This document shows, piece after piece, positions 10,534 to 54,211 of a DNA stretch of 64,000 bases. A program made the translations under genes and the position numbers. Location of the stretch: positions 1 to 64,000 of the forward strand of contig JAPPLM010000056.1 in NCBI GenBank assembly GCA_028874195.1, given 5' to 3'. The stretch comes from Chloroflexota bacterium (GTDB taxonomy: Bacteria; Chloroflexota; UBA11872; VXOZ01). Positions within the stretch are counted from its first letter, which is position 1; each line of letters opens with the position of its first letter. The notes beneath the pieces are model-generated. The model did no database searches. It was given only the letters and a program-made list of their open reading frames with translations, and was not told the origin of the DNA.

Positions 10534-10561
10534 GTAGGGGCACGACATATCGTGCCCCTAC
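10534..10561. repeat. 28-nt palindromic repeat (family C), likely bidirectional terminator
   Basis: Arms GTAGGGGCACGA and TCGTGCCCCTAC enclose about four nucleotides; here one arm base differs. It lies between the convergent GH43-like gene and the cytochrome gene, where a hairpin could end both transcripts. Further copies are at 15857-15882, 15896-15923 and 53838-53865. Confidence 0.7.
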
Positions 10562-13991: not shown

Positions 13992-14025
13992 CGTCATTCC
14001 CGCGAAAGCGGGAATCCATCTTCTC
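13992..14025 (-). repeat. Family B dRS3-like palindromic repeat
   Basis: CGTCATTCCCGCGAAAGCGG followed by GAATCCATC: arms ATTCCCGC and GCGGGAAT around four bases. It has the general form ATTCCC-N8-GGGAAT known from dRS3 repeats in Neisseria and similar dispersed elements elsewhere. Other copies are at 18089-18120, 39411-39441 and, inside a coding region, at 48511-48547. Confidence 0.8.
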
Positions 14026-15856: not shown

Positions 15857-15882
15857 GTAGGGGCACGACATGTCGTGCTCAC
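15857..15882. repeat. Degenerate family C palindrome
   Basis: GTAGGGGCACGACATGTCGT then GCTCAC: the right arm is decayed compared with the perfect copy 14 nt downstream. The pair forms a tandem arrangement between the solute-binding protein and the MetE-like gene. Confidence 0.6.
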
Positions 15883-15895
15883 GTACAATGCGGTC

Positions 15896-15923
15896 GTAGG
15901 GGCACGATATATCGTGCCCCTAC
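15896..15923. repeat. Perfect 28-nt family C palindrome
   Basis: Arms GTAGGGGCACGA and TCGTGCCCCTAC around TATA, identical to the copy at 53838-53865. It can form a strong hairpin about 170 nt after the stop of the solute-binding protein and 38 nt before the next gene, so it may separate the two transcription units. Confidence 0.8.
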
Positions 15924-15960
15924 GTATGCGCGGTAGTCCGATTGAGAGAGATTGTTACGA

Positions 15961-18088: not shown

Positions 18089-18158
18089 AGAAGATGGATT
18101 CCCGCTTTCGCGGGAATGACGTGGAAGCAAACCTAGCCAGCCCACGTGCGCGGGAATG
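18089..18158 (+). repeat. Family B dRS3-like repeat with trailing half copy
   Basis: A full copy (GGATTCCCGCTTTCGCGGGA then ATGAC) spans 18089-18120. A second right half, GTGCGCGGGAATGAC, lies at 18144-18158. The adjacent half copy suggests serial insertion or partial deletion. Confidence 0.7.
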
Positions 18159-26490: not shown

Positions 26491-27071
26491 ATGGTGTAGT
26501 TCAAGACTCAAGACCTGAACAGTTTAGTTTCACAGATTCGCGCTTGCCCGACTATGACGGTTTGAGCGCCGCTTCATCTTTCGTAGCGCGGGGTTTGTCC
26601 CCAATGTTGTCGCATTAACTTTCTTGGCAAGGAACATGGCACTCTCATTGCCTTACATTTCCGGTAGCGCAGGTTTGCATCTCGCCGGGAGTGCGGGCGT
26701 CTCGCCCGCAGACGTCTTCTCCCCCGTAGCCCGCAAGTTTGCCACCTGTGGACGCGGCGCACGATCAAGGACAGTGCCAGCAACCCCCTCAATCCGCTGC
26801 GGCGATGCAGTTTTGCAAGCCGCATGATGCCAAGAGGCGGGGGACAAGCCCCCGCGCTACTTTAATGCGACAGCATTAGGGCTTGTCCCCCGCTCTTTGC
26901 TATCCTAGCCTGGCTACCTTGACAGATAAGATGGATTCCGCGCCCCGGTACGGGGCGATTTTTCACGGGAATGACGGACAGTTCACTGCCTGCCCCTGAT
27001 ATCATTGACGAACCACCTCTCTTAGAGTCACCATTACTTCAACTACTCACAATCGATCACGGAGGAATGCT
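26491..27071. other. Intergenic repeat cluster
   Basis: About 580 nt filled with repeat copies: a family A variant at 26582-26605, GTAGCGCAGGTTTGCAT at 26663-26679 (also seen at 41420), a full family A element in reverse at 26831-26860, another half with TTAATGCGACAGCATTAGGG at 26862-26897, and an expanded dRS3-like element at 26931-26975. The word TTAATGCGACAGCATT recurs at 41579-41594. A Shine-Dalgarno GGAGG precedes the next gene. No gene seen. Confidence 0.6.
26831..26897. repeat. Two head-to-head family A palindromes
   Basis: A reverse copy (26831-26860) and a forward copy ending in CTTGTCCCCCGCTCTT (26881-26897) face each other around TTAATGCGACAGCATTAGGG. The same composite junction, TTAATGCGACAGCATTGGGG plus CTTGCCCCCGCTCT, occurs near 41579-41612. 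That suggests the pair is itself a mobile or duplicating unit. Confidence 0.65.
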
Positions 27072-38162: not shown

Positions 38163-39271
38163 GCGCGCCGAGTACAGGCGCGAGCGCGCCCGGCAAGGGC
38201 GCGAAAGTACCGCACGCGTCGCCAACTGCCACGCAGCGTATTCCCGCACCACGCCTTGAGCAATTTGCGCGGGACGTACTTGTGCAGGCGGGCATCCCGG
38301 TGGAGCATGCGGCACAGTCGGCCCGTCACCTCGTGCTGTGCGACCTGCGCGGCGTTGAATCGCATGGTATAACCCGCCTCTCTGCCCTGGTGCAGCGTAT
38401 CCGCAACGGCGTCGTCAACGCCAACGCAAACATCCACGTGGAGCGCCAGCGCGCTGCCTCCGCGTTGGTCAATGGCGATAATGGGCTGGGCGTGCCGGTC
38501 AGCACGTATGCCACACAACTGGCCATTCGCCTCGCGCGGGAGCAGGGCATTGGCACGGTGGGCGTCCACAACAGCAACCACTTCGGCATGGCGGCCGATT
38601 ACGCCCTGCAGATGGCGGATACCGCGTGCCTCGGGATCGTGACGACGAATTCCAGTCCGGCCCTGGTGCCCTGGGGCGCGGCCAGGAAGTTCCTGGGCAC
38701 GAACCCCGTCTGCTTTGGCGCGCCGGCCCACGAATCGCCGCTTATCCTGGACATGGCGACGAGCGTCGTGGCTATGGGACACGTCGTCCTGGCGGAAAAG
38801 CGCGGAGAATCCATTCCAGACTCCTGGGCGGTCGGGCCCGACGGTTTGCCGACTACCGACCCTACACTGGCCAGGCAGGGAGGGGTGCGTCCGCTGGCAG
38901 ACTACAAAGGCTCCGGACTGGCGTTGATGGTGGAGGTCTTCACGTCGCTGCTCACCGGCGCGACCCTGGGCATACATGCCGCGGGCTTCTTTAGCGACAT
39001 GACCCGGCCCGCCGACGTTGCCCACCTCTTCATTGCCATCGACATTGCGGCATTCGTAGACCTCGAGTCTTTCAAGGAGCGCATGCAAACGCTCTTGACG
39101 GAAATGCGGGAGTTGCCCCTGGCGCCGGGATTCGACCGCGTCACCCTGCCCGGCGAAATCGAGCACGAGCGTACGCAAGAGCGGCTGGCGGCAGGTGTCC
39201 CACTTGACCCGGCCGTGCTCGCCGACCTTCAGCAACTCTCTGCGCAGACCGGCGTGGCCTTGGAAACATAA
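38159..39271 (+). CDS. Malate/L-lactate dehydrogenase-family oxidoreductase
   Basis: 370 residues with a GTG start overlapping the preceding stop (GTGA). Belongs to the Ldh_2 family (malate/L-sulfolactate/ureidoglycolate dehydrogenases), distinct from classical LDH. Motifs: CDLRGVESHGITRLSALVQR, the catalytic-region GTVGVHNSNHFGMAADYALQ, GTNPVCFGAPAHESPLILDM, ATSVVAMGHVVLAEKRGESI, and KGSGLALMVEVFTSLLTGA. It oxidises a 2-hydroxyacid with NAD(P). With the preceding HIBADH-like enzyme it may process a hydroxyacid; the link with pgsA is unexplained. Confidence 0.92.
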   Translation: MSAPSTGASAPGKGAKVPHASPTATQRIPAPRLEQFARDVLVQAGIPVEHAAQSARHLVLCDLRGVESHGITRLSALVQRIRNGVVNANANIHVERQRAASALVNGDNGLGVPVSTYATQLAIRLAREQGIGTVGVHNSNHFGMAADYALQMADTACLGIVTTNSSPALVPWGAARKFLGTNPVCFGAPAHESPLILDMATSVVAMGHVVLAEKRGESIPDSWAVGPDGLPTTDPTLARQGGVRPLADYKGSGLALMVEVFTSLLTGATLGIHAAGFFSDMTRPADVAHLFIAIDIAAFVDLESFKERMQTLLTEMRELPLAPGFDRVTLPGEIEHERTQERLAAGVPLDPAVLADLQQLSAQTGVALET

Positions 39272-39323
39272 GCGCTGCGCGGTCGTGACGCGGAATTGCC
39301 GGCAGCGGCCCACGGGCGGCACA

Positions 39324-39352
39324 GTAGCGCGGGGGCTTGTCCCCCGCTTGGG
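39324..39352 (+). repeat. Family A palindromic repeat
   Basis: Complete copy about 50 nt after the Ldh-family gene; likely ends that operon. Confidence 0.8.
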
Positions 39353-39410
39353 ACACATTAGCCGTAGCCCCCGTGCCCCGACACGGGAGGGGGTGCACGA
39401 GCGTGGAGGG

Positions 39411-39441
39411 GATGGATTCCCGCTTTCGCGGGAATGACGGA
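39411..39441 (+). repeat. Family B dRS3-like repeat
   Basis: GATGGATTCCCGCTTTCGCG then GGAATGACGGA. Identical over most of its length to 18094-18120; the same strand orientation as the copy at 18089. Confidence 0.8.
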
Positions 39442-39578
39442 CGAGGGCGCTGATTGGTCTGTCCATCAAGACAAGAGTGTTAGACCAATAGAGGCATTCG
39501 GTACATCTGCACAGCAGAGAGGGAATAGCCCTTGCAAAGCCAAACCAACATTGTCCGCAACCCCCCGGTCTGCGTGTA

Positions 39579-41393
39579 ATGGCACTCCCAGCCTTTGAAC
39601 GCCAGGTTCTCGTCGAACGCGCTTTCCGTGTCTTAGAGGAAGGCGCGAGCGCGATGAGTGTTGCGGCTCTTGCACAGGCCGCGATGCAAATGAACGGTGA
39701 ACTGCCTGCTCCCCTGCTGCGCCTCATCGAAGAGAAACTCGTTGCCGACGGCCGCTTCGTCCAGGATGCCGCCGGCAACTGGGGCTTGGCGCAGTGGCAG
39801 CAGAATACCGAAGACTCGCTCGCCACACAGGTTTTCGTGGTGCTCGACGTCGAAACCACCGGCGGCATAGCGGGACGCCACCGCATCATCGAGTTGGGCG
39901 CGGTGCGCATCTGCAACGGCGAGGAGATTGCTCACTTCAATTCCCTCGTCAATCCCGGGCAACGGGTAAGCAAGCGCATCTGGCAGCTCACCGGCATTAG
40001 CGACGACATGCTGTGCGATGCGCCGTCAGCCGGTCCGGTGCTCGATGAACTCTACGCCTTCATCGACCACGTACCGGTCGTGGGGCATAACGTCGCCGCC
40101 GATCTCAATTTCCTGCTGAGCGAGGCGCTTTGGACGAAGCGTCGTCCGCTGGCCAACCTCACCATCGACACGGTGCTCCTGAGCGCGCGGCTCTTCCCTG
40201 AGATCAAGCGGCCGAGCCTGGAACGTCTGGCGCGCTACTTTGGCCTGAACGATGCGCCTAAGCACCGCGCGCTCACCGATGCCCGCGTCACCGCCCAGTG
40301 CTTTGCGCGTCTCCTCGCTCAGGTTCCCGATGGGCACCGAGCGAGCATGCGGACGTTCGTGGACTGGATGGAAGACGGTCAAGGGCAGCGCCTGCCCGTC
40401 CGCCGCGCCGCGCTGCAGGCCCAGATTCGAGTCATTCCCGCGCTGCCTGGCGTCTATATCTTTCGGGATAGCGACGGGGCCGTGCTCTACGCGGGAAAGT
40501 CGAAATCGCTCCAGCGTCGCGTGCGCAGCCACCTTTCAAACCCCGACCGGCTCTTCGACGGCATGATTGAACGCCTTGACCGCATTGACTTCGAGATTAC
40601 GGGCTCCGAGTTCGAGGCGCTGCTGCGCGAAGCGCAGATCATCCAGGAGTTGCAACCTGTTTATAACGTGCAGCAGCAGTACCGCCCGCTACAGCCCTAC
40701 GTCCGCGTGTGGCGCAGCCAGCAGGCCGGCATAAAGGTGCGCACGAGCAGCCGGTTGCGGCCGGATGATGCGGCGTACTTTGGTCCTTACCGCAACCGGG
40801 CGGCCGCGGCTTGGAATGCGCGCGTGGCCCGCCGTCTCTTGGACGCCACAGCCGCTCTTTCGGCGCAAGATCAGGCGAACCTCGTCTTTCAGTTCCTATC
40901 CGAGGGGCCGGAAGCCGTCGTTGACCGGTGGCAGGACCGCGATTCTCCCGCTGCTGCCGGGGCGCTGCAAATCCTGCGCCGCCTCCGCGCCCACCACCGC
41001 CCGCTCTCAGGAGGGTTTGCCGGACACACCATCCTACTCATCTATCCGGCGGATCCGCCGGGCAAGGTGCATCTCTTCTTCGTGCGCAACGGCCAGATGC
41101 TGGGACGGGAAACCCTCGCGCCGGCAACGGAAGCAGTGCTGGAAGAAACGCTGCGCGGGCATTTTGCCCACTACCTCTCGTTGCCCGAAAGCGCGGCGTC
41201 TGCCGATACCATTCGCCACTTCATACTGCAGTGGGTCTATCAGCACCGCGACGATCCGGCCGTCATCCCTATCAATCCCGCCTGTGTGCAGGATGCCATG
41301 GCAGCAGCAAGCAAACGGCTGGAGCGCCTCGGCGTGGTGGAGCCTGTCACGATGGGTGGTTCAGCAACCGTGCAAGAAACGCTGCTTGGCTAG
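39579..41393 (+). CDS. DnaQ-like exonuclease fused to a UvrC-like GIY-YIG nuclease
   Basis: 604 residues. After a winged-helix-like N-terminus (1-75) comes a DEDDh exonuclease: D90 and E92 in LDVETTG, GHNVAADLNFL, and the histidine and aspartate of KHRALTDARVT. From about 285 a UvrC N-terminal nuclease domain begins with the GIY motif G291-V-Y in PGVYIFRDSDGAVLYAGKSK and RRVRSHLSNPDR. It continues with LLREAQIIQELQPVYNVQQQ, while the region after it does not resemble the UvrC C-terminus. The two-nuclease architecture is known mainly from actinobacteria. A DNA repair role is likely; the substrate is unknown. Confidence 0.9.
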   Translation: MALPAFERQVLVERAFRVLEEGASAMSVAALAQAAMQMNGELPAPLLRLIEEKLVADGRFVQDAAGNWGLAQWQQNTEDSLATQVFVVLDVETTGGIAGRHRIIELGAVRICNGEEIAHFNSLVNPGQRVSKRIWQLTGISDDMLCDAPSAGPVLDELYAFIDHVPVVGHNVAADLNFLLSEALWTKRRPLANLTIDTVLLSARLFPEIKRPSLERLARYFGLNDAPKHRALTDARVTAQCFARLLAQVPDGHRASMRTFVDWMEDGQGQRLPVRRAALQAQIRVIPALPGVYIFRDSDGAVLYAGKSKSLQRRVRSHLSNPDRLFDGMIERLDRIDFEITGSEFEALLREAQIIQELQPVYNVQQQYRPLQPYVRVWRSQQAGIKVRTSSRLRPDDAAYFGPYRNRAAAAWNARVARRLLDATAALSAQDQANLVFQFLSEGPEAVVDRWQDRDSPAAAGALQILRRLRAHHRPLSGGFAGHTILLIYPADPPGKVHLFFVRNGQMLGRETLAPATEAVLEETLRGHFAHYLSLPESAASADTIRHFILQWVYQHRDDPAVIPINPACVQDAMAAASKRLERLGVVEPVTMGGSATVQETLLG

Positions 41394-41759
41394 AGAAGCG
41401 TAGCGCGCCTCGCGTCCCCGTAGCGCAGGTTTGCAACCTGCGTCCGCCTGTCGCACGTTGTTCCTGTGATTGGGTGCTTCTCTTCACTGCCACAACGCTG
41501 GGGTTGCCCCTCACCCCGGTCTATACACCACCCCAGGGGGAGGGAGCAATGTGCCCCAATGAGCGTACCGCCTTGACCTTAATGCGACAGCATTGGGGCT
41601 TGCCCCCGCTCTGGACCCCGTGCACGCGGTGCGGAGAAGATGGATTCCGCACCCCCGCACCGGGGCGAGCTTGCGCGCAAAAGACAGCCCGGAGTGCATC
41701 GCGCCTGACACCGGTGCGCGTGCTGTCTCAGGAACCATCCTCAAGGCTAACCTGACGCC
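41394..41759. other. Intergenic repeat cluster
   Basis: About 365 nt of repeat remnants: palindrome CGCAGGTTTGCAACCTGCG (41424-41442), a family D element with CCTCACCCCGGTCTATAC (41509-41526), the composite TTAATGCGACAGCATTGGGG with CTTGCCCCCGCTCT (41579-41612), and an expanded dRS3-like element (41639-41690). The last is organised like the one at 26931. No gene seen. Confidence 0.6.
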
Positions 41760-45864: not shown

Positions 45865-45985
45865 TAAGTAATGTGCTTATATCTCCGTTCGACACAATTC
45901 GGCCGTAAAGAGGTTGCCAAAGATCAATCCGACTGAATTTCTTGCTCTGGCAGCTATGATATACTGGCCGCAAAGAGGATTGCGT

Positions 45986-46747
45986 ATGGCCTACAAATCT
46001 GCAATCGAATGGACCGACGCAACCTGGAACCCCGTTACCGGCTGCACCAAAGTCTCGCGAGGCTGCGATAACTGCTACGCTGAGCGCATCGCCGAACGGT
46101 TTCGTGGGACCCCCGGACACTCCTATGAAAGAGGGTTCGATCTTACGCTCCGCCCGGAGCGGCTAGACCAACCCCTTTCGTGGAAACGGCCGCGAATGAT
46201 CTTTGTGAATTCGATGAGCGACCTGTTCCACAAAGATATTCCAACGCAATTCATCGATAGCATATTCGACATCATGGAGACGGCTGATTGGCATGTCTTC
46301 CAGATACTCACCAAGCGCAGTTCCCTCATGAGGGATTACTTGCGGCGGCGATATGGATCTACTCTTGCGCCGCGGCATATCTGGTGCGGCGTTTCCGTTG
46401 AAGACAGCAGAGCGACCGCAAGGATACAGCACCTAAGAGACGCGCCAATCTCGATTCGGTTCCTCTCAGTAGAACCACTTCTGGGACCTCTAGGAGAGAT
46501 AGATCTTACAGGCATCTCTTGGGTCATCGTCGGTGGGGAAAGCGGCCCGAATGCCCGACCCATGAAGCCGGAGTGGGTGCTTGAAGTCCGAAATCTCTGC
46601 AAGCAAGAAAAGGTTCCCTTCTTCTTTAAGCAGTGGGGCGGCCAGACGCCGAAATCGGGTGGACGACTGCTTGAGGGCGTTGAACATAATGCCACCCCAA
46701 CGTATCTGAGGGAGGAGAACATGGATGTCCTTCCAGTGGCACGTTAA
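45986..46747 (+). CDS. DUF5131 / phage Gp37-Gp68-like three-cysteine protein
   Basis: About 253 residues from ATG 45986 (MAYKSAIEWTDATWNPVTGC); the frame open upstream has no similarity. Three cysteines (C20, C27, C30; pattern C-x6-C-x2-C in TGCTKVSRGCDNCYAE) probably bind a metal or Fe-S cluster, resembling a radical-SAM-like arrangement. Other conserved motifs: RMIFVNSMSDLFHKDIP, FQILTKRSSLM, WCGVSVED, RFLSVEPLLGP, WVIVGGESGPNARPM. This phage-linked family is found next to TcmP, and here the TcmP gene overlaps its 3' end. Exact reaction unknown. Confidence 0.9.
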   Translation: MAYKSAIEWTDATWNPVTGCTKVSRGCDNCYAERIAERFRGTPGHSYERGFDLTLRPERLDQPLSWKRPRMIFVNSMSDLFHKDIPTQFIDSIFDIMETADWHVFQILTKRSSLMRDYLRRRYGSTLAPRHIWCGVSVEDSRATARIQHLRDAPISIRFLSVEPLLGPLGEIDLTGISWVIVGGESGPNARPMKPEWVLEVRNLCKQEKVPFFFKQWGGQTPKSGGRLLEGVEHNATPTYLREENMDVLPVAR

Positions 46748-47990
46748 CGATCCACCTCCCACTATTGAGGAGCATAGCAGGGCTAAGCTCACGGTCCTAC
46801 GCGATTATCTTCGCAAATACTTCAACAGACTGGGCTCTATACCCGCTCGCGATGAATTCAGGCTCGATCTTGTTGATGGCTTCGCCGGAGGCGGCACATT
46901 CCAAGATGGTGACAGTATTGTACCCGGTACGCCTCTGATCATGCTGGAGGAATTTGATGATGCACAAAAGAGACTGAACCAAGGACGCAATAAGCCCCTC
47001 CATTTCAATTGCAAATTCCACTTTGTTGATGTACAACCGGACCACACTGAGCACCTTAGGAAGGTACTAGCTGAGCGCGGGTACCTTGGTGATGACTACA
47101 AGATCGACACCCACGACAGAAGATTCGAGGATGTAGCCGACGACATCATTGCAGACATCCGTAGTCGGCAACCTCGAGCGGGACGTGCGATTTTCCTCTT
47201 GGACCAATGCGGTTTCTCACGAGTATCGTTGGATCTGGTTGCCCGAATTCTTAGTATGCTGCCTGGGGCAGAAGTTATTCTGACATTCGCGGCAGACGTA
47301 TTAATCAACTTCTTAAATGAGAGGCCGCAGTTTATTCAGGCGGTTGCTCGGCTTGACTTGACGGAATCGCAAATTCACGAAATGATCCAACTCAGGAACG
47401 GTGACGGGGGAAAGGCACTTGTCCAAAGAGTACTACGGAACCACATTCGCAACATAACAGGTGCAACCTACGACACACCCTTTTATCTTGAACCCCAGAA
47501 GTCACGCCGCGAACTCTGGTTTCTTCACCTCTCTCGGCATCCAACAGCGCGTGACGTGATGATCCAGTGTCACTGGGACAATTCCAATACATTCAAGCAC
47601 TACGGCCCAGGTGGCTTGGACATGCTTGGATGGGACGCATTGAAAACCGGGAATATCCCACTATTTAATTTCAAAAGACTTGACGAAGAGCAGATGGTGG
47701 AGCAACTTCTCGATTCAATGCCTTTAGAGCTAGACGCTCTAGCGGGAGACAACCCGATTACTGTAAACGCGGTGCGTCACATACTTGCCAACAGGAGTGC
47801 GGCGAGGTTTTCAGATCTTGACAGAGTAATTCTCAGGCTTGCTCAGGAGAGGGAGTTCGATATTCTTACCCCCGAGCTCAAGGAGCGATCACGCAACTTA
47901 CAACGACTCAACCCAACTGATCTGATTGCTGTGCCCACCACGCGACAGTTTTCTATTCTTTCACGCCGACGGCAGGAGACAGAGTCTTAA
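46725..47990 (+). CDS. tcmP: Three-Cys-motif partner protein TcmP
   Basis: 421 residues, ATG 46725 overlapping the upstream gene by 23 nt, after GGGAGGAG. TcmP-type proteins accompany the DUF5131 three-cysteine protein. Motifs: LDLVDGFAGGGTFQDGDSIV resembles a SAM-methyltransferase nucleotide loop (GFAGGG). HFVDVQPDHTEHLRKVL follows as in Rossmann methyltransferases, then AIFLLDQCGFSRVSLDLVAR. The C-terminus is helical. It ends 2 nt before the convergent Type ISP gene. The biochemical role is unknown; the pair may modify or sense nucleic acids, as inference from family context. Confidence 0.88.
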   Translation: MSFQWHVNDPPPTIEEHSRAKLTVLRDYLRKYFNRLGSIPARDEFRLDLVDGFAGGGTFQDGDSIVPGTPLIMLEEFDDAQKRLNQGRNKPLHFNCKFHFVDVQPDHTEHLRKVLAERGYLGDDYKIDTHDRRFEDVADDIIADIRSRQPRAGRAIFLLDQCGFSRVSLDLVARILSMLPGAEVILTFAADVLINFLNERPQFIQAVARLDLTESQIHEMIQLRNGDGGKALVQRVLRNHIRNITGATYDTPFYLEPQKSRRELWFLHLSRHPTARDVMIQCHWDNSNTFKHYGPGGLDMLGWDALKTGNIPLFNFKRLDEEQMVEQLLDSMPLELDALAGDNPITVNAVRHILANRSAARFSDLDRVILRLAQEREFDILTPELKERSRNLQRLNPTDLIAVPTTRQFSILSRRRQETES

Positions 47991-47992
47991 GT

Positions 47993-50900
47993 TCAAGCTG
48001 TCAGCAATAGCATAGCCCCGATGCGTCTGGCGGTGTCGGTGAAGTGTTGCACTTCATCGGGCTTGAGGGAGCGGCCGAGAACGGGGAGTTCGCGGTAGGA
48101 GAGCCATTTTTTGAGGACTTGGTAGCCGCCGAGCTTGTAGTGCCAGACGTGGGCGGGGACGTTGCGCCAGTAGGCGCGGTCGTTGAGGTAGATGTCGTAG
48201 GTGGTTGCGCCGAGCATGGCGATGGTGTCGCCGAGGGCCTCGCGTTCGGCGGGAGTGTAGGCGCGCTCGATCGCCTTGCCCTGGCCGGGCATGACGGCTT
48301 CGCCGCTGCCAAAGTGACCCCAGCCGGCGGTGAGGGCAAAGTCGTCAGCGGTCATGTTGCGGTCGTCGGTGGTGGCGGGCACGGCGATGGCGGCGATTTC
48401 GGGTCGCAAGGTTCCCGTGGTGACGCCGGGGACGGGGATGTCGGAGTCGAGGAGGTGGGCCAGTGTGCGGCCGCGGGCGGCAGAGGCGGCCAAGGCCTGC
48501 GCCGCGTCGGAGGCCGGATGGATTCCCGTTTTCACGGGAATGACGGACTCATCCGCGCTGGCGAGTTCGGGCCAGCCGGGCAGCGGGATGCGCGGCCACT
48601 CCATGCGCAGGGCGCCGGCGTTGGCCGCGCGGTAGGCGGGATCGTGGAGCACGTCGAGCGCGTGGTAGAAGAGGTCTTCCACGCCCAGGCCGAGACGGTC
48701 GAGGTAGCGCTGCGCGGCAGGCGAGAGGTTGGGAATACGCTTGACTGTTGATGCGTCGGCTCCGAGGCCGATATCCCGGGTCCAGGCAGGAAAGAAACTG
48801 GATAATCCGTTGCCAAAGTTGTCCGCAAGATTGTAGGTTAGTGTTCCCCGTGAAAATCCTTCCCGGGCTTCTCTTTCTCGCGCTTCGAGCCAAACGTTCC
48901 CCTTGAATACATGCGGCTTATATTTTTCGCGTTTCTCGTCAAGCAGTTTTGTTTCCGATTCCCAATAGAGCCAGCGGGTGTCGAAAGGCCTGTATGTATA
49001 ACGCATGAAACCGCTTTCAATCGGCCCTCCACGATCAAGCAGCGCGCTGCGCACGGCGCGGGCGTTGTACCGCGCCGTACTTTGCATCACGCCCGGATAG
49101 CGCCGCGCAATCTCCTCATGGCTTAGTTCCGCAGCGAAGTAGTCTGCGACCCGCGCCTGGAGCCGGTCGAGATCCATGTCAACCAGAAACGAGTCGCGGC
49201 TGGTCTTGACTCCCGGATACGAGGTCGGGAAGAGATCAGGCAGCGCGGGCCAGCCGAACCAGTCCTCGCTGACTGCTATCGGCTTGAACGGCAATCCAAG
49301 CCGTATATCGGGTTCGAGCTTCGCATACCCCGAATCCATTGTGGGAGCATCCAGGCTATCCAGCAGCGCTTGCCGTCTCTCATCTGCCCGCGCTTGGTCA
49401 AAGCCGCGGTACAGGACGTGTTTGCCTTCAGTTGAACTGGCAGACGTTTTCGATAATAGCGTGATACTTGTGCCTATCCTTATGCCGGGTGACTTTCCGC
49501 TAATCGAAAAAACCGTTTCACTTGTCCGTCCGTCGGGCGCATATTCCGAAATGATACGGTCGCCGTGCAGGTTATCGATGCGGATGATGTCAAACGCCTC
49601 CAGGTAGCGTTCCCGCATACCGGTGAACGAGAGCCCGTCGAGCCAGGAATAGTTGGAGATGAAGCAGACGACGCCTTGGCCGGTTTTCTCGGCGATGCGG
49701 CGTTCGGCCATGCGGAAGAAGCGGACGTAGAGGTCGTTCAGCCCCTGTCCTTCCGGGCGGCGCACGCGCTTGGTGGCGCGGTAGGCCTCCGAGAGCTCCC
49801 GTTCCTCGTCCACGGCCATACCGGCGAAGCCGTTGTAAGGCGGATTGCCGAGCACCACCAGGATGGGCTTCTCTTGTTTGACCGAGTTCGCCCGCTCGCG
49901 CTCCTCTTCTAGCTCGGGGAACGGCAACGCCTTCCATCCTGACGGCTCCCAGCCGGTGAGGGCGTTGGTGAGGAAGATACCGGCGCGCTCGTCGCCGTCT
50001 TCCGCTAAAGGCGCGTCAAGGGCCTGCATAGTGAGGCCGACCTGAAGGTGCGCCACGACGAACGGGGCGGGCATGATCTCGAAGCCGAAGACCCTCTGCG
50101 TGGCGGCCTGCTTTACCTGTGCGCCGGTGAGCGCGCCCACGCGGCTTTGAAGATTCTCCGCGATGCGCCGCAGCGTCTCGGCCAGGTACGCGCCGGTGCC
50201 GCAGCAGGGATCGAGCACGTAGACGTTCTCCGCCGCCAGTCCGTCGGCAATGCCGAGATCGTCTTTGAGCGCCTTGTCCACCCGCGCCACCATGTAGCGC
50301 ACCACCTCCACAGGGGTGTACCACACGCCCAGTTGCTTGCGCAGGGCGGGATCGAAGGCTTCCAGGAACGGCTCGTAGAAGTACGGCACCGCTTCGCCTT
50401 CGCTGAAACGCTTGAAGAAGGCTTCCCGATCCACGCGATCAAGCGCGGCGGCGGTCCAGTTAAGCACCTCGACCAACCCCAGCGATTGCAGGCGGGCGGG
50501 GTCGGAGAGTTGCTGAAAGAGCGCCCGCAATACCGGCGCGCGCAAGTGCCAAACGGCAGTGCGCCATTCGAATGCGCCGGCAGGCGGCGGGACTGCCCGC
50601 GACCACAACACCCAGGCGGAAAAGACGCCGTAGAAGAGCGTTTGCACCAGCGTTGACCGGAAAAAGGCGGCACCCCTCTCGCCCTCAAATCGGACACCGA
50701 GCGCTTCTTCAAGCGCCTCGCGCACCGCTGTCAGGGACGGCGTGTCGCCCGCCGCCTCAACCCGTGCCAAGCCGTCGCGGGCGTAGGAGGCCAGCAGCCA
50801 CGCCAGGTCGCGCGGCTCAGCCAGCACCGCACGGTGCGAGAGCGCGCGGCAAAGATACTCGCCCAGTCCCGCGCCAACCTCGCGGGCAAAGGCGCGGGGC

Positions 50901-53747: not shown

Positions 53748-54211
53748 CAGCCCACGGTCGTTACGCCGAAATCGATGCCTGCTGGCGTTGGTTTCATCAA
53801 GGATTGGCCGTAGCTGCGCGCACTACGAGACGCAGCAGTAGGGGCACGATATATCGTGCCCCTACTCTTGTCTATGGCTCGCACCCGCACCCTGGGAAGT
53901 GCCGGCATCGAGCGCACCGAAGGCGTTGCACAGCCCGTGCCAGCGGACGCGAAGGCTCCCTCTTCCTGGATTGGGTCGGTGTGAGCGGGTGTCCGCACCG
54001 TACCGCCTAGCTTGCGTGGCTCGTCAGAGCCGCACAAGGGCTACCCAAGTGCATATCGTGACCGCACACCAACGCCGGATCTGCGGTCTCGCGCGCGGCT
54101 TCAACACAAGTTTCTGCCTTTCCTCGCTTTGCCAATGGTCGGTTTGACTGCATGACCGCGAGCGTGAATAATGAGGCGCAATGGCCTGTTGGAAAAGGGT
54201 GGTGACGGCGG
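53748..54211. other. Gap between binding protein and permease genes
   Basis: About 464 nt with a perfect family C palindrome at 53838-53865, likely reducing read-through from the binding-protein gene so that it is made in excess over the permeases. Small ORFs are unrecognised. Confidence 0.55.
53838..53865. repeat. Perfect 28-nt family C palindrome
   Basis: Identical to 15896-15923. Arms GTAGGGGCACGA and TCGTGCCCCTAC around TATA. Located 90 nt after the binding-protein stop, where differential mRNA ends are expected in such operons. Confidence 0.8.

Follow-up and report, generated by a model that had tools for sequence, protein, structure and literature searches.

The window analysed here, 64,000 nucleotides of a Chloroflexota genome, encodes a single-chain restriction-modification (R-M) enzyme in which ten codons are supplied by a palindromic repeat that is mostly found between genes (Table 1). 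Pfam models for N6_Mtase, Eco57I and Type_ISP_C were found in this protein, with the specificity domain Type_ISP_C (PF18135) matching at E 8e-36. The best PADLOC models are REase_MTase_IIG (E 4e-89), and the closest solved chain is PDB 7lo5 (E 9e-30); 7lo5/DrdV belongs to the Type IIG/IIL R-M enzymes. The motif GHPDF...GVVEVK, read from the N-terminal sequence, suggests a putative PD-(D/E)xK nuclease. In order, the layout comprises this putative PD-(D/E)xK-like nuclease region, an N6-adenine methyltransferase and a Type_ISP_C specificity region. Type ISP enzymes (LlaGI/LlaBIII) and Type IIG/IIL enzymes have the same nuclease-like N-terminus, an adenine methyltransferase and a related C-terminal specificity domain. 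In contrast to Type ISP enzymes, in which a superfamily 2 helicase-like ATPase separates the nuclease from the methyltransferase, the host enzyme is much shorter, and no helicase model was found in it with Pfam at E 1e-3. Since no helicase was found, the protein does not qualify as a complete Type ISP enzyme, and by its domain content it is best described as Type IIG-like. An earlier note on this DNA had called it a Type ISP enzyme; that name fits the C-terminal domain, but not the protein as a whole, which lacks a detectable helicase and finds its best PADLOC and PDB matches among Type IIG-like enzymes.

The gene is also a mosaic, with residues 620–850 swapping between lineages. The corresponding stretch of the window (48842–49534) shows mosaic identity among relatives in the specificity region, which suggests domain swapping. 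Adjoining the R-M gene, a DUF5131 gene overlaps a TcmP-like gene (45914–47990), and the PADLOC matches of this pair are candidate defence pairs (PDC-M30/M41).

Table 1. Positions of the R-M gene, the coding repeat, its intergenic copies and other genes that contain REPs
Feature	Position	Strand	Basis
Host gene: single-chain Type IIG-like R-M enzyme, 1132 aa	47993..51391	(-)	Pfam, PADLOC, PDB, motif
Variable linker 1, residues 942–962	48506..48568	(-)	alignment, relatives' REPs, low-confidence coil in AlphaFold models
CGTC-1 type REP (dRS3-like), in-frame	48517..48547	(-)	family matches, ORF translation, conservation profile, fold
Intergenic copy of coding element	13993..14016	(-)	pattern match
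Intergenic copy of coding element	18097..18120	(+)	pattern match
Intergenic copy of coding element	39415..39438	(+)	pattern match
UvrA with CGTC-REP insert	L144 / L215, contig C15 of the same genome, ~39200–40800; also L217–L220, L223		
3HCDH/ECH fusion, REP segment MDSRFHGNDG...RHSRESGSPSD	L143 / L260–L265		

The earlier note had reported a dRS3-like palindrome that is translated in frame within the R-M gene. This reading is borne out: the minus-strand codons from 48544 to 48515 encode VIPVKTGIHP, residues 950–959 of a frame that stays open over 1132 amino acids. The palindrome proper (ATTCCCGTTTTCACGGGAAT, 48522–48541) displays the core pattern ATTCCC N8 GGGAAT and sits inside a 31-bp unit with the plus-strand sequence GATGGATTCCCGTTTTCACGGGAATGACGGA. 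It is intact and folds into an 8-bp stem with a 4-nt loop. On the coding strand, the element is laid out as CGTC-ATTCCCGT-GAAA-ACGGGAAT-CCA, and the last bases of the CGTC tag adjoin the stem. The three intergenic copies that had been cited at 13992, 18089 and 39411 are present (Table 1).

This element belongs to a large family. Perfect cores occur 108 times in the 3.5 Mb genome (81 contigs), compared to about 0.15 expected from base composition and none for the reversed pattern, so the element is not a product of chance. A longer asymmetric pattern with up to 3 mismatches affords 258 matches on both strands versus 7 in the control, and the window holds nine matches with up to 2 mismatches versus 1.9 expected, a number that none of 100 shuffles reached. 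Across 99 genomic copies, the profile of conservation stands near 2 bits within some 31 bp and is flat outside, which marks a REP unit with sharp ends; the edges of the coding unit match this profile. An unpaired CGTC tag at one end (CCGTC-ATTCCC on the coding strand) is nearly invariant in the 99 copies, and the other end carries a CCA tail (GGGAAT-CCA). Together with an 8-bp stem that begins with AT, a 4-nt loop and many dispersed, mostly intergenic copies, these are the features by which CGTC-1 REPs have been described (Di Nocera, De Gregorio, Rocco 2013, PMC3733652), and judged by them the coding element is a CGTC-1 REP. The same authors equate CGTC-1 with dRS3 of Neisseria and RPE-6 of Rickettsia conorii. 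Since CGTC-1 covers both, the likeness to dRS3 and the likeness to the protein-coding palindromes of Rickettsia, both drawn in the earlier note, refer to one known kind of element, and the comparison with Rickettsia is apt.

Other repeats are also found in the window. GTAG palindromes (GTAGGGGCACGATATATCGTGCCCCTAC), perfect or near-perfect, lie at 10534–10561, 15857–15924 and 53837–53866, and the genome contains about 49 copies. A separate repeat, GTAGCGCGGGGGCTTGTCCCCCGC, is present in five copies (18028, 20954, 30532, 39317 and 45081). Finally, a composite repeat (26925–26979 and 41634–41687) looks like a CGTC element that encloses a CGCCCCG hairpin, and is similar to a split element in the R-M genes of two genus-mates (L018 and L021).

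The coding element lies in a stretch that we call linker 1. Homologues of the R-M enzyme were aligned in 100 rows, in which several loci are duplicates of one genome. The R-M sequence of L046 is the same as that of locus L018 from genus-mate G001. In 64 of these rows, both flanks align, linker 1 consists of six residues and VIPVKTGIHP is missing; they come from Gammaproteobacteria, Alphaproteobacteria, Binatota, Gemmatimonadota, Acidobacteria, Nitrospira, cyanobacteria and some Chloroflexota. Most distant homologues hence show the pattern that the earlier note had proposed as support for an insertion, and none of those aligned contains the residues without the palindrome. We also considered that the ten residues might be ancestral and resemble the element by chance. 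Nothing was found in favour of this idea, and we rejected it as having next to no probability, because the residues correspond to an intact member of a family with more than 100 copies and are absent from the six-residue linkers.

In REP-bearing genera, linker 1 ranges from 21 to 78 residues and contains CGTC singles, CGTC pairs, GTAG palindromes or CGTC elements split by a hairpin. The linker of the window's enzyme measures 21 residues. That of genus-mate L033 measures 78 and ends with an identical SVIPVKTGIHPASD in the same codons, while L018 and L021 have 50 residues with a CGTC element that is split by a second hairpin. All three genus-mates contain in addition the GTAG palindrome GTAGGGGCGGTTCGCGAACCGCCCCTAC, read as GRGGSRTAPT. 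Within genus g3, linker 1 holds a CGTC pair in L027 and L028 (VIPVKTGIQ...DWIPASAGMT) and a GTAG-type sequence in L017 and L032; in L030 (genus g9), it holds VIPAKAGIQ. CGTC sequences also occur in a second linker near residue 1053, in L021 and L030 and, in degenerate form, in L017. In L030/L104 a stop codon follows directly after the REP, so the REP region of L030 may damage its gene and not every insertion may be benign.

The presence of the same element in L033 bears on two further points. The first is assembly: repeats break assemblies, and this metagenome-derived genome is in 81 contigs, which could raise the suspicion that a repeat was wrongly joined into the gene. However, the gene is intact and lies inside a 92,891-bp contig, and L033, which has the element in the same codons, comes from another genome. 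We rejected misassembly as exceedingly improbable on these grounds. The second point is age. The earlier note had spoken of a recent insertion, which stands at the level of the genus but not of the species, since the insertion is common to genus-mates and the element in L033 is identical. No genus-mate is known to have an empty site, so the exact ends of the insertion and any target duplication are unreadable.

The same note had placed the element in a linker of low conservation. Indeed, residues 942–962 vary in length among relatives and appear as low-confidence coil in AlphaFold models. The mean pLDDT is modest (61.5 at full length, 69.5 for a model of residues 740–1132). Residues 936–962 fall below 50 in the full-length model, and in the shorter model the block with the element is coil (mean about 56) that is followed directly by a confident helix. 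This is consistent with a flexible linker 1, as an indication rather than proof. Since a PDB fold search with the C-terminal model gave no significant match, structure contributes just this low-confidence coil.

Genus g5, from the same family as g3, has 0–1 CGTC copies and 0 GTAG copies per genome. Its linker 1 consists of 19 residues, with no REP peptide in 11 of 11 copies examined. REP peptides are thus found in linker 1 of 9/10 REP-bearing genomes with a readable homologue versus 0/11 REP-free gene copies (Fisher p ~3e-5, uncorrected for relatedness), where the p value serves as an indication, since the units are related by descent and genomes are counted on one side and gene copies on the other. 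In a tree of the C-terminal region, the window's genus forms a clade with support 1.0. Its nearest relatives have six-residue linkers, from which it follows that the insertions in this genus are separate from those in g3.

This tree also bears on the idea that linker and REP were gained together by recombination between R-M genes, instead of by insertion of a REP into the host gene. The mosaic structure of the enzyme would fit such an origin, as would the GTAG palindrome at a similar place in two families, in g1 (L018) and g3 (L017), so part of what is shared may stem from exchange of genes. As the source of the coding element, recombination appears unlikely to us: the genus clade is separated from g3, its neighbours have short linkers, and the CGTC elements of g3 differ.

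We then turn to the distribution of the family with respect to genes. A census of regions cut around some 100 listed copies, plus the window, yielded 123 elements with up to 2 mismatches, window included. An element was counted as in-gene when the frame is coding on both sides as judged by a model of codon usage that had been trained on this genome, with no gene caller involved. By this measure only 7 of 112 evaluable elements lie inside genes, compared to 48% of positions picked at random from these regions, which indicates that the element is mainly kept out of genes. The seven fall in four genes, coding for the R-M enzyme, UvrA, a 3-hydroxyacyl-CoA dehydrogenase/enoyl-CoA hydratase fusion (3HCDH/ECH) and a DUF2298 membrane protein, and the frame stays open in all four. 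Their readings (VIPVKTGIHP, HSRESGSPS, MDSRFHGND and SFPRKRES) use several frames, so no frame is special. The surviving in-gene copies sit where an in-frame insert is tolerated.

UvrA provides the most extended case. All six genomes of the genus carry a REP-built insert at one site (query residue 244), and the region from flank to flank measures about 50 residues in G005, 66 in G001, 84 in G004, 151 in G002, 164 in the window's genome and about 330 in G003. The frames, read directly, are open in all inserts. In families f3 and f5, UvrA aligns through without an insert. From other phyla, REPs in uvrA had already been described. The 3HCDH/ECH fusion likewise contains a REP-built segment of variable length in every genus-mate where the site is readable. 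CGTC-1 REPs occur predominantly as head-to-head dimers (PMC3733652), and CGTC pairs are present in UvrA and 3HCDH. The DUF2298 protein (L174 / L244–L248) is different in that it contains a perfect REP without a change in length. Since its genus-mates align without gaps and have partly similar sequence in register with the REP, this copy is not clearly a new insertion; to judge from the alignment, a decayed ancestral REP, or replacement or conversion, would be just as likely.

These loops raise the question as to whether the inserts are kept by selection, either because they form hairpins in DNA or mRNA or because the peptide serves as a flexible spacer by which the specificity region is tuned. 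The element is identical in the window and L033 while neighbouring protein regions are 83–93% identical, UvrA and 3HCDH/ECH retain REP-built loops in every genus-mate with a readable site, and Di Nocera et al. (2013, PMC3733652) have speculated on REPs in repair genes. On the other hand, the loops vary freely among species in length and sequence (21–78 residues in the R-M enzyme, about 50 to about 330 in UvrA), their reading frames differ, and homologues without them conserve the remaining protein. We consider maintenance by selection improbable, and surmise that the inserts are neutral or nearly so. A broader proposal would be that REPs are a standing source of protein sequence in this genus, with the loops of UvrA, 3HCDH/ECH and the R-M enzyme capturing, multiplying and keeping them in frame, maybe with a function. 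If this doubtful proposal is true, REPs would have given rise to segments that reach about 330 residues, vary from one species to the next, and are probably disordered and possibly functional.

The most convincing account, which we hold to be very probably correct, is that a CGTC-1 REP entered the R-M linker in an ancestor of the genus and survived there, and that other REPs struck the linker elsewhere. A non-coding repeat of 30–31 bp would have spread through this Chloroflexota genome, and one copy would have come to lie in the C-terminal specificity region, within a linker that is flexible and probably exposed. Its survival there would be due to a length that yields ten codons, to frames that are mostly open and to a linker in which changes in length are tolerated. 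In other lineages, REPs of both superfamilies would have struck linker 1 and the second linker some 100 residues downstream, which suggests that this part of the enzyme, presumably an expressed protein, tolerates REP insertion repeatedly. In the simplest terms, a non-autonomous REP would insert into a tolerant loop, and selection against loss of frame would act as the filter. Such a scheme presupposes a mobilising activity. RAYT proteins are not supported in this role for CGTC REPs, since the Y1 transposase model PF01797 has no match in the CGTC-rich genera g3, g8 and g9. The window's own genome has two PF01797 matches, and palindromes with arms of at least 9 bp were not found beside them.

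In-frame REPs within genes are already known, and examples were listed by Di Nocera et al. (2013, PMC3733652). The element described here shares with the published CGTC-1 REPs the tag, stem, loop and CCA tail, a mostly intergenic location with occasional in-frame copies, and the lack of a dedicated, matched tyrosine transposase. In that survey, Chloroflexi are listed for GTAG repeats but are not among the five phyla with CGTC repeats; here, CGTC REPs occur in Chloroflexota, and one linker was struck by both kinds. GTAG REPs, hypothesized to be mobilised by RAYT, are represented by GTAGGGGCGGTTCGCGAACCGCCCCTAC in the same linker of relatives, whereas the coding element of the window is of the CGTC kind. 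To our knowledge, coding CGTC REPs in Chloroflexota are new. The same holds for a single linker that unrelated REP families occupy in separate lineages, set against a control genus free of REPs, and for a UvrA loop built of REPs that has grown throughout the genus. UvrA with species-specific loops also provides an example, open to testing, of parasitic DNA that is tolerated by a core repair protein.

Protein-coding palindromes were at first described as peculiar to Rickettsia, and were later reported from a few other bacteria. RPE-4, RPE-6 and RPE-7 are likewise palindromes that are read in frame in orthologous genes, and from species to species, neighbouring sites are occupied by different groups (R. 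japonica genome paper, PMC3767692), as is the case in the linker of the R-M enzyme. The ATGAC motif that is frequent in these elements is also part of the Chloroflexota element. The authors of that study left undecided whether such sites are insertion hotspots or reflect divergence from one insert. The Chloroflexota case bears on this question and brings a natural control in the form of a sister genus that lacks both REPs and the peptides. Since the occupants of the R-M linker include unrelated palindromes, GTAG as well as CGTC, comparison of these sequences favours an insertion hotspot over a single insert that diverged.
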